Shown here: positions 3,542 to 29,264 of the stretch, piece by piece
Position numbering within the stretch: position 1 is the first letter of the stretch
Layout of the letters: every line of letters begins with the position of its first letter
Source of the DNA: Bacteroidota bacterium
GTDB taxonomy: Bacteria > Bacteroidota > Ignavibacteria > Kapaibacteriales > UBA2268
Direction of reading: 5' to 3'
DNA: 64,000 nucleotides
NCBI GenBank assembly: GCA_004322215.1
Contig: SCSM01000021.1
Coordinates: 62,001-126,000, forward strand
Notes under the pieces: model-generated
Databases searched by the model: none
What the model was told of the DNA's origin: nothing
The model's input: the letters and a program-made list of their open reading frames with translations, nothing else
Program-made: the position numbers and the translations under genes

Positions 3542-4395
3542 TTGGTATAACCTTTTCTCAATTTCAAAAGTTCATCCATTTGTTTGATTAGAGCTGTCCT
3601 TTCGGGATTCGGAAGATATTTAATCACAAATATTTCTTCCAAAGCACCGAAATTTACAAAAGACCTGACAGAAATAGTTTTGAAAATATTACCCGGCTCT
3701 TCTTTTATTTCTACCACTTTCCCGATTGGTACGTCTGGCGGATATTTATTGCTGAATGTAGATGTCAGAACAAGGTCGCCAAGCTTGACATCGTATGCTT
3801 TCGGGACATTCTTCAACTCAAATACTTCACCGCCCTCCCAGACAATAACACCGTCAATACCGCTGCGCTGTAATTTTGCAGCTATTTTAATATCCCTGTT
3901 CTCTATCATTTCTACAAGGGCAAAGTTTGATGTTGTACCGATTATCTCTCCAACCAATCCTGCATCATTTCTTACAGACATGCCTGCTTGAACGCTATCT
4001 GTGCTTCCCCTGTCTATCGTTAGATAATTTCTCAGTTCTATTGAATTTTTCCCCACTACTTCTGCAGGTATGTAAAATAATTCTTTCCCCTCTCTCAGTT
4101 TCAGAAGTTCTCTCAATCTCCTGTTCTCGATGACTGCATTTCTCATTTTCGTTACTTCTGTGGAGAGCTGGAGATTAAGTTGTCTGAGAGATTTATTTTC
4201 AGATTGCAAGGCACCCGGTTTGGGTATCCATGTGAAAACGCTTTGCATCCACCCGACTGTTCCTATTACAACTGTCCTGAAACCGCCAATCCTGGAAACG
4301 TCGCCGAGTGAAATTAATGATAATGAAATTATAACGAGAGCTACGAGTGTAAAGTATTCTTTGTATTTCGCTACAAAATTTATAAAACCCTGCAT
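3538..4395 (-). CDS. mreC: Rod shape-determining protein MreC
   Basis: 285 residues. One N-terminal transmembrane segment (about 14-32) is followed by a short coiled coil (about 64-100, ENKSLRQLNLQL through ENRRLRELLKL) and the two beta-barrel MreC domain, with the typical IDRGSTDSVQAGMSVRNDAGLVGEI stretch split over its first barrel. MreC is a periplasmic scaffold linking MreB filaments with the wall synthases. It is encoded between mreB (233-bp gap) and mreD (173-bp gap), wider spacing than usual for this operon. Confidence 0.93.
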   Translation of the reverse strand: MQGFINFVAKYKEYFTLVALVIISLSLISLGDVSRIGGFRTVVIGTVGWMQSVFTWIPKPGALQSENKSLRQLNLQLSTEVTKMRNAVIENRRLRELLKLREGKELFYIPAEVVGKNSIELRNYLTIDRGSTDSVQAGMSVRNDAGLVGEIIGTTSNFALVEMIENRDIKIAAKLQRSGIDGVIVWEGGEVFELKNVPKAYDVKLGDLVLTSTFSNKYPPDVPIGKVVEIKEEPGNIFKTISVRSFVNFGALEEIFVIKYLPNPERTALIKQMDELLKLRKGYTK

Positions 4396-24098: not shown

Positions 24099-25253
24099 AT
24101 GATATATTTCAATAATGCAGCAACAAGTTATCCAAAACCGAAGGTGGTTTTTGAGGCAGTAAACGAATATTTTAATGCTCCGACCTGCCATTCGGCAAGG
24201 ACAGGATTGGAAGTAGACGAGGACGACAAAGCGACTAATGCGAGGCAGAAACTTGCAAAATTATTTAATGTACAGGATTATAATCAGATTGTATTCACTT
24301 CCGGTAGTACAGAAGCATTAAATCTTGCTATCAACGGAATCGGCTTGAAGAAAGGTTCACATGTCGTTTCGACAGTGATAGAACATAATTCTGTAATCAG
24401 GCCATTGAAACATCTCGAAAGAGATGAAGGTGTTGAAGTTGATTTTGTCGGGTGCGATGAATTTACTTACGTAGAACCGTCTAAAATTGAAGAAGCAATT
24501 AAACCCAATACAAAAGCGGTTGTTGTCAATCACAGTTCTAATGTAACGGGTTCGATTCTCGATTTGGATTCTATTTCAAAAATAGCACATAAGCATGATG
24601 CTATTATTATAGTAGATGCATCCCAATCGGCAGGAAATATTCCGATAGATATTAGCGGCTGGGACATTGACCTTATCTCCTTCACAGGACATAAATCACT
24701 TTATGGGATCCAGGGTATCGGTGGATTATATTTAAAGAAAGGTCTGAATGTTAAGCCATTGAAGGTAGGAGGAACGGGTGTTAAAAGTGAAGTATTGACT
24801 CAACCGACAGAAATGCCATTGTATTATGAAGCCGGAACTCCGAACAATCCGGGTATTGTTTCTCTTGATGCAGGAGTGGGCTATATCTTAGAAAAAGGAA
24901 TAGATGTTTTAAGAAAAAGAAAAACAGAAATTGTTAAAACATTTATTAAGGAATTTGAAAATTATCCTGAAATAGACATTTATACTCGAGGAGAAAAGAA
25001 CAGCTATGTAAATTTCTGTTTCAATATAAAAGGAATGGTTCCTGAAGAAGTTGGATATGTACTCGATAGTTCTTACGATATTACAGTAAGGACAGGATTG
25101 CATTGCGCCCCTCTTATTTTGAAACCATTGGGTGTATATCCATGGGGAACAGTCAGGGTAAGTCCTTCATTTTTTACAACAGATAATGAAGTTGATAAAT
25201 TCATCGAAGCAATTAAAGAAACTGTTAAAACATTTGTAAGAAAAGGGAAATAA
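24099..25253 (+). CDS. Cysteine desulfurase-like class V aminotransferase
   Basis: 384 residues. Opens with YFNNAATSYPKP; has FTSGSTEALNLAI, the PLP-lysine in SFTGHKSLYG, and the active cysteine in VRTGLHCAP. This layout matches the cysteine desulfurase family protein group (SufS-related, TIGR01977 type) that takes sulfur from cysteine. No sufBCD or iscU lies nearby, so the sulfur acceptor is unknown. Short C-terminal tail. It stands alone between divergent and convergent minus-strand genes. Confidence 0.9.
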   Translation: MIYFNNAATSYPKPKVVFEAVNEYFNAPTCHSARTGLEVDEDDKATNARQKLAKLFNVQDYNQIVFTSGSTEALNLAINGIGLKKGSHVVSTVIEHNSVIRPLKHLERDEGVEVDFVGCDEFTYVEPSKIEEAIKPNTKAVVVNHSSNVTGSILDLDSISKIAHKHDAIIIVDASQSAGNIPIDISGWDIDLISFTGHKSLYGIQGIGGLYLKKGLNVKPLKVGGTGVKSEVLTQPTEMPLYYEAGTPNNPGIVSLDAGVGYILEKGIDVLRKRKTEIVKTFIKEFENYPEIDIYTRGEKNSYVNFCFNIKGMVPEEVGYVLDSSYDITVRTGLHCAPLILKPLGVYPWGTVRVSPSFFTTDNEVDKFIEAIKETVKTFVRKGK

Positions 25254-25294
25254 TTATCATCATTATTTATTAAATGAGTAATTCTATATCTAAA

Positions 25295-25966
25295 TTAATT
25301 TTTCAATTTTATGATTGGTTTATTTAACCATTTCTTTTTGTTTTCTTTATCAAGTTTCATGAAAAGAAAATAACAGATTAATGTGAATAACATTCCGATT
25401 ATTGAACCGAAATACACATCAATAAAGAAGTGCTGAACAAGATATACTCTCGATATGCCGACAAGTAATGCAACAAAAAAATAAAAAATTCCGATTTTCT
25501 TATTTTGAGTAATGATGCTCAATAAGAAAAACAAAGAAAATGCCGAGGCAGAATGTCCCGAAGGAAAACTGTTATATGATAGTATATGAACCCCAGGGGC
25601 ATAATGCAACAGGACATTATCTCCAAAGAAAAGTTTTGGTCTTGGTGTATCAGCAATTCTTTTAATTATTTGTGCTGCTATACCGCTTGCGGCATAACCG
25701 GAAATTGCAAATAAAAAATATCTTCCGTTAACAAAAAGTAATAATAGCAAGCCAACAGCAATGTATGTTAAACCGTCGCCGAAATATGTCATATACTTGA
25801 AAAAGAAATCAAGTGTCGGATTATGCAAGGAATTCAGCCAGAGCAGAAAATCACCCTTTTTCATAATTAGCAAAGGATAAAGACCGGCAATTAGAAAAGC
25901 GAGATATAAAGAAAAAAAATAAGAATTTTTCCTTATTAGAAATTTAAATTCATCAATAATTTTCAT
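25295..25966 (-). CDS. PAP2-superfamily membrane phosphatase
   Basis: 223 residues with about six membrane segments. The three acid phosphatase motifs are intact: KRIADTPRP, PSGHSASAF and SRVYLVQHFFIDV. Likely dephosphorylates a lipid phosphate such as undecaprenyl pyrophosphate or phosphatidate at the periplasmic face. The start is 9 bp downstream of the DnaJ-domain gene on the same strand. Confidence 0.93.
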   Translation of the reverse strand: MKIIDEFKFLIRKNSYFFSLYLAFLIAGLYPLLIMKKGDFLLWLNSLHNPTLDFFFKYMTYFGDGLTYIAVGLLLLLFVNGRYFLFAISGYAASGIAAQIIKRIADTPRPKLFFGDNVLLHYAPGVHILSYNSFPSGHSASAFSLFFLLSIITQNKKIGIFYFFVALLVGISRVYLVQHFFIDVYFGSIIGMLFTLICYFLFMKLDKENKKKWLNKPIIKLKN

Positions 25967-25975
25967 ACAGTGATT

Positions 25976-26332
25976 TTAATAATCAATTACCATTTTGCCT
26001 TGCTGACTGCTTTTTGTCTTTTTTTCAAAATAAGGAATTTTCAGCGTATTATAAAGTAACAATTCATTAAGAAATAAATTATTTAAAAGTATGCTGTATT
26101 GCAGCCGGTTATCGAGATTACCCAGCACATTGTATGCCTCGGCAATTTCATAGAATCTTCTAAGATTATCCGGTGTGTTACCGCAAATATCGGGATGGAA
26201 GACACGGCTCAACCGATAATATGCTTTTTTAATATCATTGGATGAAGCGGTCCTCTGAATTCTCAGTATTTTATAATAATCTTTAATTGCCATGTCATAA
26301 ACCAAAATTACACAGTTAAATATTAACTGCAT
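25976..26332 (-). CDS. Short J-domain (DnaJ-like) protein
   Basis: The true start is probably the Met at 26293, giving 105 residues beginning [12 protein letters not shown]; the upstream 13 codons are not domain-like. The J domain holds [19 protein letters not shown] with the essential HPD motif. The remaining 40 residues have no glycine/phenylalanine or zinc region, so it is a type III J protein that may stimulate DnaK ATPase. It overlaps no neighbour and precedes the PAP2 gene by 9 bp. Confidence 0.85.
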
Positions 26333-26367
26333 CTAATTCAAATTTAGCATTATTAAAGCCGTCCGTC

Positions 26368-26388
26368 AATCCGTAGAAATACTGGATT
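26368..26388. terminator. Small hairpin, possible terminator after the T9SS-tail gene
   Basis: AATCCGTA and TACTGGATT pair with one bulged T around GAAA. It is 7 bp beyond the 26395 stop. On the minus strand no good T run follows; on the plus strand TTTTGTTATT follows. Confidence 0.35.
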
Positions 26389-26394
26389 TTGTTA

Positions 26395-26664
26395 TTAATG
26401 CATTATTATTAAACCTATTGTCTTATATTCATTCTCTGCCCACAGGACAGCATAGTATAATCCTTCTTTTAAATCATAAGTATTGTAAACACGCTTATAA
26501 TTTCCTTTTTCTTGTTTTTCACTGAATATCTTGTCAATGATATTTCCCATATGGTCGTATAGTTCTAATTTCACTAACGCAGATTGCTTGAGTTCATAAC
26601 TGAATGTTACATATTTATCAGTTGGATTTGGATATGCCTCAAAGTTACCAATATATGTTTGCAT
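26395..26664 (-). CDS. Orphan type-A T9SS sorting domain, likely frameshifted tail of the upstream frame
   Basis: 89 residues made almost wholly of a T9SS C-terminal sorting domain: FEAYPNPTDKYVTFSYELKQ, then VKLELYDHMGNIID and LKEGLYYAVLWAE. There is no signal peptide. The frame remains open upstream to about 26718 and reads KKLCYSGSCLSEKLK before the Met, which looks like genuine coding sequence. The 26667-26894 frame is joined to it by a -1 shift at an A6 run. It is thus probably the 3' part of one protein. Confidence 0.7.
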   Translation of the reverse strand: MQTYIGNFEAYPNPTDKYVTFSYELKQSALVKLELYDHMGNIIDKIFSEKQEKGNYKRVYNTYDLKEGLYYAVLWAENEYKTIGLIIMH

Positions 26665-26666
26665 TT

Positions 26667-26894
26667 TTAATTTTTCAGATAAACAAGAACCTGAATAACA
26701 TAATTTTTTATCGTCGGAATATTATAAAAATTATTTGGAATATCATATTCGCCATACCAAAGATTATGTGTAAAATTCATATTCATAGCTTCATCAAGTT
26801 TTCTTCCGGGATTATAAAAATTAAATCCACGAATAAAATGATTAAAATCTTTTTGGGTTCTCTTTTCCTCCCTCTCATCTTGCTCCCATCCCAT
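26667..26894 (-). CDS. N-terminal part of a small T9SS-tailed protein
   Basis: 75 residues starting MGWEQDEREEKRTQ behind the strongest ribosome site of the window (AAGGAGG, 7 nt upstream of ATG). No family is recognised and no signal peptide is seen. The phrase NLWYGEYDIPNNFYNIPT suggests the end of a T9SS cargo. After A AAA AAT (26709-26703) the zero frame stops within 13 codons while the -1 frame continues into the sorting domain at 26395. Either the gene is broken by an indel or a programmed -1 frameshift makes a product of about 165 residues. Confidence 0.5.
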   Translation of the reverse strand: MGWEQDEREEKRTQKDFNHFIRGFNFYNPGRKLDEAMNMNFTHNLWYGEYDIPNNFYNIPTIKNYVIQVLVYLKN

Positions 26895-27137
26895 ATTTTC
26901 CTCCTTTTCTGTCTACTTTTTTTTAGGGCGGGGCACGCCAAGCACCCGCATATTAAGTAAATAGAAAACGCCCCACTCGGAGCGCCTCATTATTGTTCCT
27001 AATATGCTATTTTTTTGGCGGCTTATAACATAGAACTACAACAATGCTACGCTTATTAAATCATAAAACTATAATTATACTACAAAATAATAACATTACT
27101 TCCAAATATTTTTATATTGAGGAAAAAATATATTTTA

Positions 27138-29264
27138 TCACCCTATCTTCACAACACTTGTGATTTCAACATCCGTTTCGGCAGGTAATTCCGTATAACT
27201 GATAACACTCAGCATCGGGAACTGGGACCTTACGAGCCGGTAAAGATACGGCCTGATTTGGGCAGAGGAGATAACAAGTGGCAGATGTCCAGCGAGAGTG
27301 ATTTCGTCTAAAGATTCATTTAAGCTTTTTTGAAGCTCTCTTATTATATCCGGAGATAAGCCAAGAGTAATGCTTGTGCTTGCCTGTGAATTCGATTGCA
27401 ATGCGTTAGTCATTAATTGCTCAATTTGAGGGTCGAGTGAAATAGCATGTACAACGCCATTTTGGTCCTGGTAGAGTTTCTTGATTGTTTCCGATAAATT
27501 ATGTCTTACATATTCGGTAAGCACATCAATGTTTTTCGTTACTTTGAAATATTCGAGGAGCGATTCGAGAATGATCGGTAAATCGCGAACGGGAATTTGC
27601 TCTCTCAATAGGTTCTGTAGTACTTTTTGCACAACAGAAACAGGCATAGTTTCCGGCTTTACTTCTTCGACGAGTACAGGGTAATCATCTTTGAGATTTT
27701 CGATGAGATGCTTGACATCCTGGCGTGTAAGCATTTTATCTGAATTTCGTTTTAACAGTTCGGTAAGATGTGTGGTAAGAACCGTAGCCGCTTCAACTAC
27801 AGTATAACCCATAATTTCAGCATTTTCTCTTTCTGATATAGTTATCCAGGTAGCCGGCAAACCGAAGACCGGCTCAGTAACCGTGATACCCGAAATCTCA
27901 CCTTCTGCAGTACCGGGATTCATAGCAAGGAGCATGCTTGGATGGAGAATATTCCGGGATATTTCATTACCCCTGATTTTAATGACATATTCTTCCGGCT
28001 CAAGTTGCAGATTATCACGAACACGGACAGGAGGAAGAATGATACCGAGTTCATTTGCGAGCTGACGTCGAACATTGGTAATGCGTTTGAATACATCTCC
28101 ACCCTGGGATTCATCAACGAGTGAAATCAATGAATATCCGAGTTCAATTTCAACAGGGTCAACTTTCAATAATTCTTCAACTGGCTGCTCTTCGGGTTTT
28201 TTGGCTTTTTCGGCTTCGGCAAGTTCCTGCCGAAGTTCTTCATCGGCTTTCCGCTTGATTTGCTGATTTCTAAGATAAGCCAAACCACCTGCTAAGCCTG
28301 ATAGAATCAAAAACGGGAGCATGGGAAATCCTGGCATGAAAGCAAATAATACCATTGCAAAAGAAGCGACAGCCAATGCACGGGGCTTTTTACCAAACTG
28401 GGCACCGAGTTCTACGTCGAGCTTTTCTGCAGAAGCAGAACGGGTAACAACCAAACCACCGGCAACAGAAATTAAAAGAGCAGGTATTTGAGTTACAAGT
28501 CCGTCACCGATTGTCAAAATTGTATATGTTGAAAGAGCTGTGGTTAAATCCATGCCTCTTTGTGCAACACCGATAGCAAAACCACCCACAATATTTATTG
28601 CAACAATAACGAGACCAGCTATGGCATCGCCGCGAATAAACTTTGCAGCACCATCCATAGCACCGTAGAAATCGGATTCTTTAGTTAATGATTCCCTTCG
28701 GTTTCGGGCTTCGATTTCATCAATATAACCGGCATTCAAGTCTGCATCAATACTCATTTGCTTTCCGGGCAGGGCATCCAGAGTAAATCTTGCGGCAACT
28801 TCTGCGATTCTCGTTGAACCTTTGATAACGACTATGAAGTTAATAACCAATAAGATTAAAAAGATAATAATACCGACAACATAATTCCCGCTGATTACGA
28901 ATGTACCAAATGCCTGAATTATTTTTCCGGCTTCCGCCTGGCCTAATATTAATCTCGTAGCTGTAACATTCAGACCCAGGCGAAACAGAGTTGTTATAAG
29001 TAAAATAGTTGGAAAAGAAGAAAAATCGAGAGGGCGAATAAGATAAACTGCAACAAGAAGTATCAGAACAGATAACGATATATTAGTTGCCAATAATAGA
29101 TCGAGTAAAAAAGTAGGCAAAGGAATAATAAGAAGCCCGATTATTAACAGAACCCCTAATGCAAGGAGCAAATCCGGGCTTTTTCTCAAAAAAGGAATTG
29201 TCCTTGTCTGGAAACCTGTCATTGCTCTCGAAGGAGGTGCCATTATTTGCGTACTTTTAGCCAT
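27138..29264 (-). CDS. flhA: Flagellar biosynthesis protein FlhA
   Basis: 708 residues. The N-terminal half has about eight membrane helices, with the FHIPEP-family segment RPLDFSSFPTILLITTLFRL and GDAIAGLVIVAINIVGGFAIG. The C-terminal cytoplasmic domain (about 360-708) includes the export-gate ring region, LLTQDVKHLIENL-type helices (here LTRQDVKHLIENL) and the HLPLVISSAQIRPYLYRL segment. FlhA is the nonameric export gate of the flagellar type III apparatus. It is isolated: no flhB, flhF or fliPQR nearby. Confidence 0.96.
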   Translation of the reverse strand: MAKSTQIMAPPSRAMTGFQTRTIPFLRKSPDLLLALGVLLIIGLLIIPLPTFLLDLLLATNISLSVLILLVAVYLIRPLDFSSFPTILLITTLFRLGLNVTATRLILGQAEAGKIIQAFGTFVISGNYVVGIIIFLILLVINFIVVIKGSTRIAEVAARFTLDALPGKQMSIDADLNAGYIDEIEARNRRESLTKESDFYGAMDGAAKFIRGDAIAGLVIVAINIVGGFAIGVAQRGMDLTTALSTYTILTIGDGLVTQIPALLISVAGGLVVTRSASAEKLDVELGAQFGKKPRALAVASFAMVLFAFMPGFPMLPFLILSGLAGGLAYLRNQQIKRKADEELRQELAEAEKAKKPEEQPVEELLKVDPVEIELGYSLISLVDESQGGDVFKRITNVRRQLANELGIILPPVRVRDNLQLEPEEYVIKIRGNEISRNILHPSMLLAMNPGTAEGEISGITVTEPVFGLPATWITISERENAEIMGYTVVEAATVLTTHLTELLKRNSDKMLTRQDVKHLIENLKDDYPVLVEEVKPETMPVSVVQKVLQNLLREQIPVRDLPIILESLLEYFKVTKNIDVLTEYVRHNLSETIKKLYQDQNGVVHAISLDPQIEQLMTNALQSNSQASTSITLGLSPDIIRELQKSLNESLDEITLAGHLPLVISSAQIRPYLYRLVRSQFPMLSVISYTELPAETDVEITSVVKIG

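Follow-up and report, generated by a model that had tools for sequence, protein, structure and literature searches.

The locus described here raises the question of whether a programmed -1 frameshift joins a small protein to a type IX secretion system (T9SS) sorting tail, or whether what is seen is a broken gene. The whole locus lies on the - strand of a window of 64,000 nt (35% GC), by which we mean the entire stretch of DNA that was analysed. The original prediction described a zero frame with a strong Shine-Dalgarno at 26667-26894 that stops 13 codons past a slippery heptamer, and this is what the - strand sequence contains. The zero frame opens at the ATG at 26894 with AAAAGGAGGAAAATATG, is preceded by AAGGAGGAAAATATG and ends after 75 codons at a TAA (26669-26667), within a stop-to-stop frame of only 81 codons. 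Inside it lies ATAAAAAATTATG, in which the A6 run occupies 26709-26704 and the T is at 26703. With 26709 as the third base of a zero-frame codon, A AAA AAT (26709-26703) is in register as an X XXY YYZ heptamer, and there are 13 codons from AAA AAT to the zero-frame stop. The -1 frame from the heptamer, KKLCYSGSCLSEKLK, has no stop until the TAA that ends at 26395.

This -1 frame does continue into a T9SS sorting domain, as had been predicted. It scores 35.9 bits with Por_Secre_tail (PF18962; cut-off 27, E 9.1e-9) and 30.6 bits with TIGR04183 (cut-off 23, E 2.5e-7); the tail frame thus carries the C-terminal sorting domain that defines T9SS type A cargo. The window's genome is rich in such tails, with 148 matches to this one at E ≤ 1. 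In the zero frame, the best Pfam match is DUF5394 (E 0.13, under the cut-off) and NCBIfam yields none, and by eye the frame start, MGWEQDEREEKRTQKD, contains neither a hydrophobic stretch nor an N-terminal Sec signal peptide. A search of 25000-28000 for structured RNA in Rfam gave just a chance snoRNA (E 0.94).

The 75-aa frame was used as a query against 100 genomes, consisting of the window's own genome (G000) and 99 relatives. Matches at E ≤ 10 are found in 38 of the 100. The sole strong match outside the window (80% over residues 13-68, E 6e-29) is in G003, a genome of the same genus that we take to be Ignavibacteria bacterium RIFOXYC2_FULL_35_21, with its contig C37 taken to be MHAY01000037.1; it sits in an open frame of 1455 codons. 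The G003 gene, on C91, runs uninterrupted for 1439 codons, has a T9SS tail and a start that by eye resembles a signal peptide, MKTIYYLFLLVIGGNLFAQ, and is an intact homologue that holds both parts of the locus in one frame. The original prediction had held that a homologue with a single uninterrupted frame would count against a programmed slip, and G003 supplies one. C91 is the close homologue used throughout and the only one of its kind to span both arms described below; the remaining matches are weaker (best 2.3e-6) and shorter and were inspected in part, namely those on C60 and C8 of G003 and in G064.

When the window is compared with the G003 gene by blastn, two ungapped matches are obtained. 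In the left arm (26690..26855), window 26855-26690 is identical to the gene start at 141 of 166 bp, and its protein to G003 codons 36-90 at 45 of 55 residues; this arm is read in the zero frame and includes the heptamer. In the right arm (26395..26702), window 26702-26395 is identical to the last 308 bp of the gene, stop included, at 251 positions, and its protein to the last 102 codons at 82 of 102 residues; this arm carries the sorting domain, its frame being offset by -1 from that of the left arm. The left and right matches share 13 bp of the window (26690..26702), which places the deletion junction, and the sequence TATGTTA is identical in both G003 arms. In G003 the distance between the arms is 3754 bp, which is 1 mod 3, so that a deletion of such length accounts for the observed -1 offset of the tail. 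The tail frame owes its openness to being the end of a real gene and not to the heptamer. Residues 110-1300, the core of the long gene, have matches in 34 of the 100 genomes, with none at E ≤ 1e-5 in G000 versus three in G003, and the core is also absent from G001 and G002 in the same search. The assembly of G000, rated 96.7% complete, holds the core in none of its 47 contigs.

Upstream of the left arm lies a filler of 80 bp (26856..26935; 77.5% purine), which includes the Shine-Dalgarno-like AAGGAGG as well as the opening 13 codons of the 75-aa frame from its ATG at 26894, MGWEQDEREEKRT. It occupies the place of the gene's signal-peptide end. No credible match was obtained by blastn of the filler against the G003 gene region, and a search of the filler in G000-G003 returned no significant match except itself. 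T9SS cargoes cross the inner membrane first by Sec, via an N-terminal signal peptide (PMC11285876). Because the filler replaces the signal-peptide region, even a frameshifted product would lack the Sec signal of such cargoes.

The remnant is flanked by flhA (27138-29264) and, on the other side, by a dnaJ-like gene (25976-26332). The flank downstream of flhA (26936..27053) is 82% identical over 118 columns to the corresponding site in G001 (L061) and is unmatched at the empty G002 site; read by eye, it contains a terminator-like hairpin, GCGCTCC-GAGT-GGGGCGT followed by TTTTCT. The right flank of the site (26321..26390) is common to G001 and G002, with 80% identity over 70 columns to the former and 76% over 83 columns to the latter (window 26407 to 26325). 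Between the same flanks, G001 carries a WD40/T9SS gene (409 aa), a truncated gene (183 aa), a WD40 gene (330 aa) and a fragment of a tail (62 aa). In G002, flhA directly neighbours the dnaJ-like gene, and no gene of this kind separates them. In G003, about 10 kb lie between the two, which are oppositely oriented, and the long gene is elsewhere. A decaying gene module is thus present at the flhA/dnaJ-like site in two of the four genus genomes examined. A contig scan with the dnaJ-like protein gave five loci, one of which (that of G003) is a close relative. Across the interval corresponding to window 25976-29264, all four genus genomes differ: remnant, decayed module, empty and rearranged.

We conclude with high confidence that the locus is a pseudogene remnant, in which the two ends of a larger gene for a secreted protein have been joined out of frame. 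Judged from these alignments, the ancestor would have been a gene some 1440 codons long, situated between flhA and the dnaJ-like gene and encoding a large T9SS-secreted protein that began with a signal peptide, ended in a C-terminal sorting domain and had an uncharacterised core in between. About 3.75 kb would then have been deleted between the short direct repeats TATGTTA, taking out roughly codons 90-1337 and joining the gene start to the tail out of frame, with the junction (26702-26690) just downstream of the A6 run. A second break at about 26856 would have taken away the signal peptide and anything upstream of it, and the leftovers would be the 75-aa frame, the heptamer within it and the open tail frame. 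We infer slippage or microhomology recombination as the mechanism of the deletion, and likewise the order of the two breaks. The remnant is presumably functionless, although the 75-aa frame might be translated, given its strong Shine-Dalgarno-like site. Most likely, then, this is real DNA of an ordinary kind that records ordinary gene decay. The original prediction had offered an indel as its simpler alternative, and the broken gene of that proposal stands while the base gained or lost in A6 does not, the A6 run being unchanged in G003.

The divergence of the two arms bears on the history of this remnant. Between the window and G003, Ks is 0.41 for the left arm, 0.79 for the right arm and 2.24 for flhA, values that are rough for the short stretches and near saturation for flhA; the corresponding Ka/Ks ratios are 0.32, 0.16 and 0.02. 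Judged by flhA alone, the arms are closer than the host genomes, which suggests that the gene was shared horizontally and that the deletion came later, in the window's lineage. The right arm is still without stops, and the deletion is therefore probably recent. Its lack of a stop in 101 codons, together with the Ka/Ks of 0.16, so indicates either recent decay or a tail that was constrained until recently.

Related long and short forms were seen in the same genomes. In a recurring gene pair, the first gene encodes a WD40-propeller T9SS protein of about 430 aa and the second a T9SS protein of about 1440-1770 aa (L035:3886-9506, L036:982-7453, L037:1-3872 and L039:2065-11062). For the long protein P0003, the tail is the sole Pfam domain, and no convincing PDB match was obtained. 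A piece of about 70 bp (approximately FLxSESVVxxxxVTLNSGIRNI) is found in four truncated long-gene starts in G001 and G003, after differing points (L061:3895-4003, L037 near 3874-3980, L088:1356-2027 and L089 near 1500-1570). One of these, on C79 of G003 (L088:1356-2027), is an in-frame short form of 223 aa with a signal-peptide-like start and the 70-bp piece, and it ends with the last 152 bp of the long-gene tail region, 91% identical to C91. In G064 (L039:3388-3861), a truncated copy of 157 aa lies upstream of the full-length gene and shares 96.8% identity over 463 bp with the beginning of that gene.

A broader reading would be that genes for large T9SS cargoes in this family time and again lose all but their start and tail, that some of the products are kept as working secreted small proteins, for example that on C79 of G003, and that the window holds a failed, out-of-frame case. 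We consider this unlikely; if true, it would describe a route for new small secreted proteins in Ignavibacteria.

It is very unlikely that the junction is an assembly error and that the genome really carries the full gene. The gene family has several copies in G003, which could favour such an error, yet the core is missing from every contig of a nearly complete assembly, two separate breaks would be needed, and the 7-12 bp shared at the junction are probably short for an assembler to join on. More improbable still is a functional short derivative, that is, a new cytosolic 75-aa peptide made from the Shine-Dalgarno-like site. The strength of this site and the existence of short forms such as the in-frame relative on C79 speak for it. 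Against it, no homologue of the first 13 codons was found in G000-G003, the tail is out of frame, the signal peptide is absent, and there is no sign of selection on the joined product.

Programmed -1 frameshifting at A AAA AAT, yielding a short product in the cytosol and a long one that bears the T9SS tail, is to be discarded in favour of the deletion remnant. The register of the heptamer is right, the -1 frame is open into an intact sorting domain and the Shine-Dalgarno-like site is strong. However, the junction is downstream of the heptamer, which belongs to the left arm. G003 has the same heptamer unchanged and reads it in the zero frame within the 1439-codon gene; slipping by -1 at that point in G003 would yield KKLCYSGQRC before a stop is reached, without entering the tail. 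The homologue comparison proposed with the original prediction therefore bears out conservation of the heptamer itself and not of the two-frame layout, which is absent from this sole close homologue. Both frames are the ends of one gene. No stimulatory structure was detected downstream, all three stretches folding no better than shuffled sequences do (z -0.21, 0.26 and -0.16). The heptamer is also commonplace: in window ORFs of 150 codons or more, A AAA AAT occurs in register 19 times, a count no higher than chance expectation, and in-register X XXY YYZ heptamers with Y = A or T occur 135 times in the same ORFs. The best-studied slippery heptamer of this type, A AAA AAG, is present in 68 E. 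coli genes (PMC9307594), and hence a slippery heptamer by itself says little. A literature search combining type IX secretion, frameshift and sorting domain found nothing. In addition, the product would have no signal peptide, although T9SS cargoes use Sec (PMC11285876). On three grounds, namely the homologue, the RNA folding and the lack of a signal peptide, the programmed slip is rejected. With it goes the regulated addition of a tail to a T9SS cargo, for which this locus had been put forward: the candidate mechanism is removed, as the locus consists of the two ends of one gene.

Equally rejected is a single-base sequencing or assembly error in A6 that split an otherwise intact gene: homopolymer runs are prone to error and a one-base change would unite both frames, but A6 is identical in G003, and the joined frame would still be without about 1250 core residues and the signal peptide, leaving the larger structure unexplained.

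Of the known systems compared, T9SS type A cargo (PF18962 / TIGR04183) shares with the right arm a true sorting domain, while the remnant, unlike such cargo, has neither signal peptide nor core and carries its tail out of frame. In programmed -1 frameshift cassettes such as E. coli dnaX, the heptamer consists of A residues and follows the X XXY YYZ register. The locus has this register of A residues in common with dnaX-type cassettes; in contrast to them, it shows no downstream structure beyond that of shuffled sequences, no two-frame product tied to the heptamer in the homologue and no conserved arrangement. Where a deletion junction falls next to an A-rich run, the result can evidently look like a frameshift cassette, each frame staying open as a piece of the same real gene. 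In bacteria, pseudogene remnants arise by deletion between short direct repeats. The locus resembles these deletion pseudogenes without notable difference: its ends are joined at a short shared sequence, the frame is lost, the neighbours are intact and a relative has an intact homologue; here the join happens to lie beside a slippery-looking A6T, with the tail in the -1 frame.
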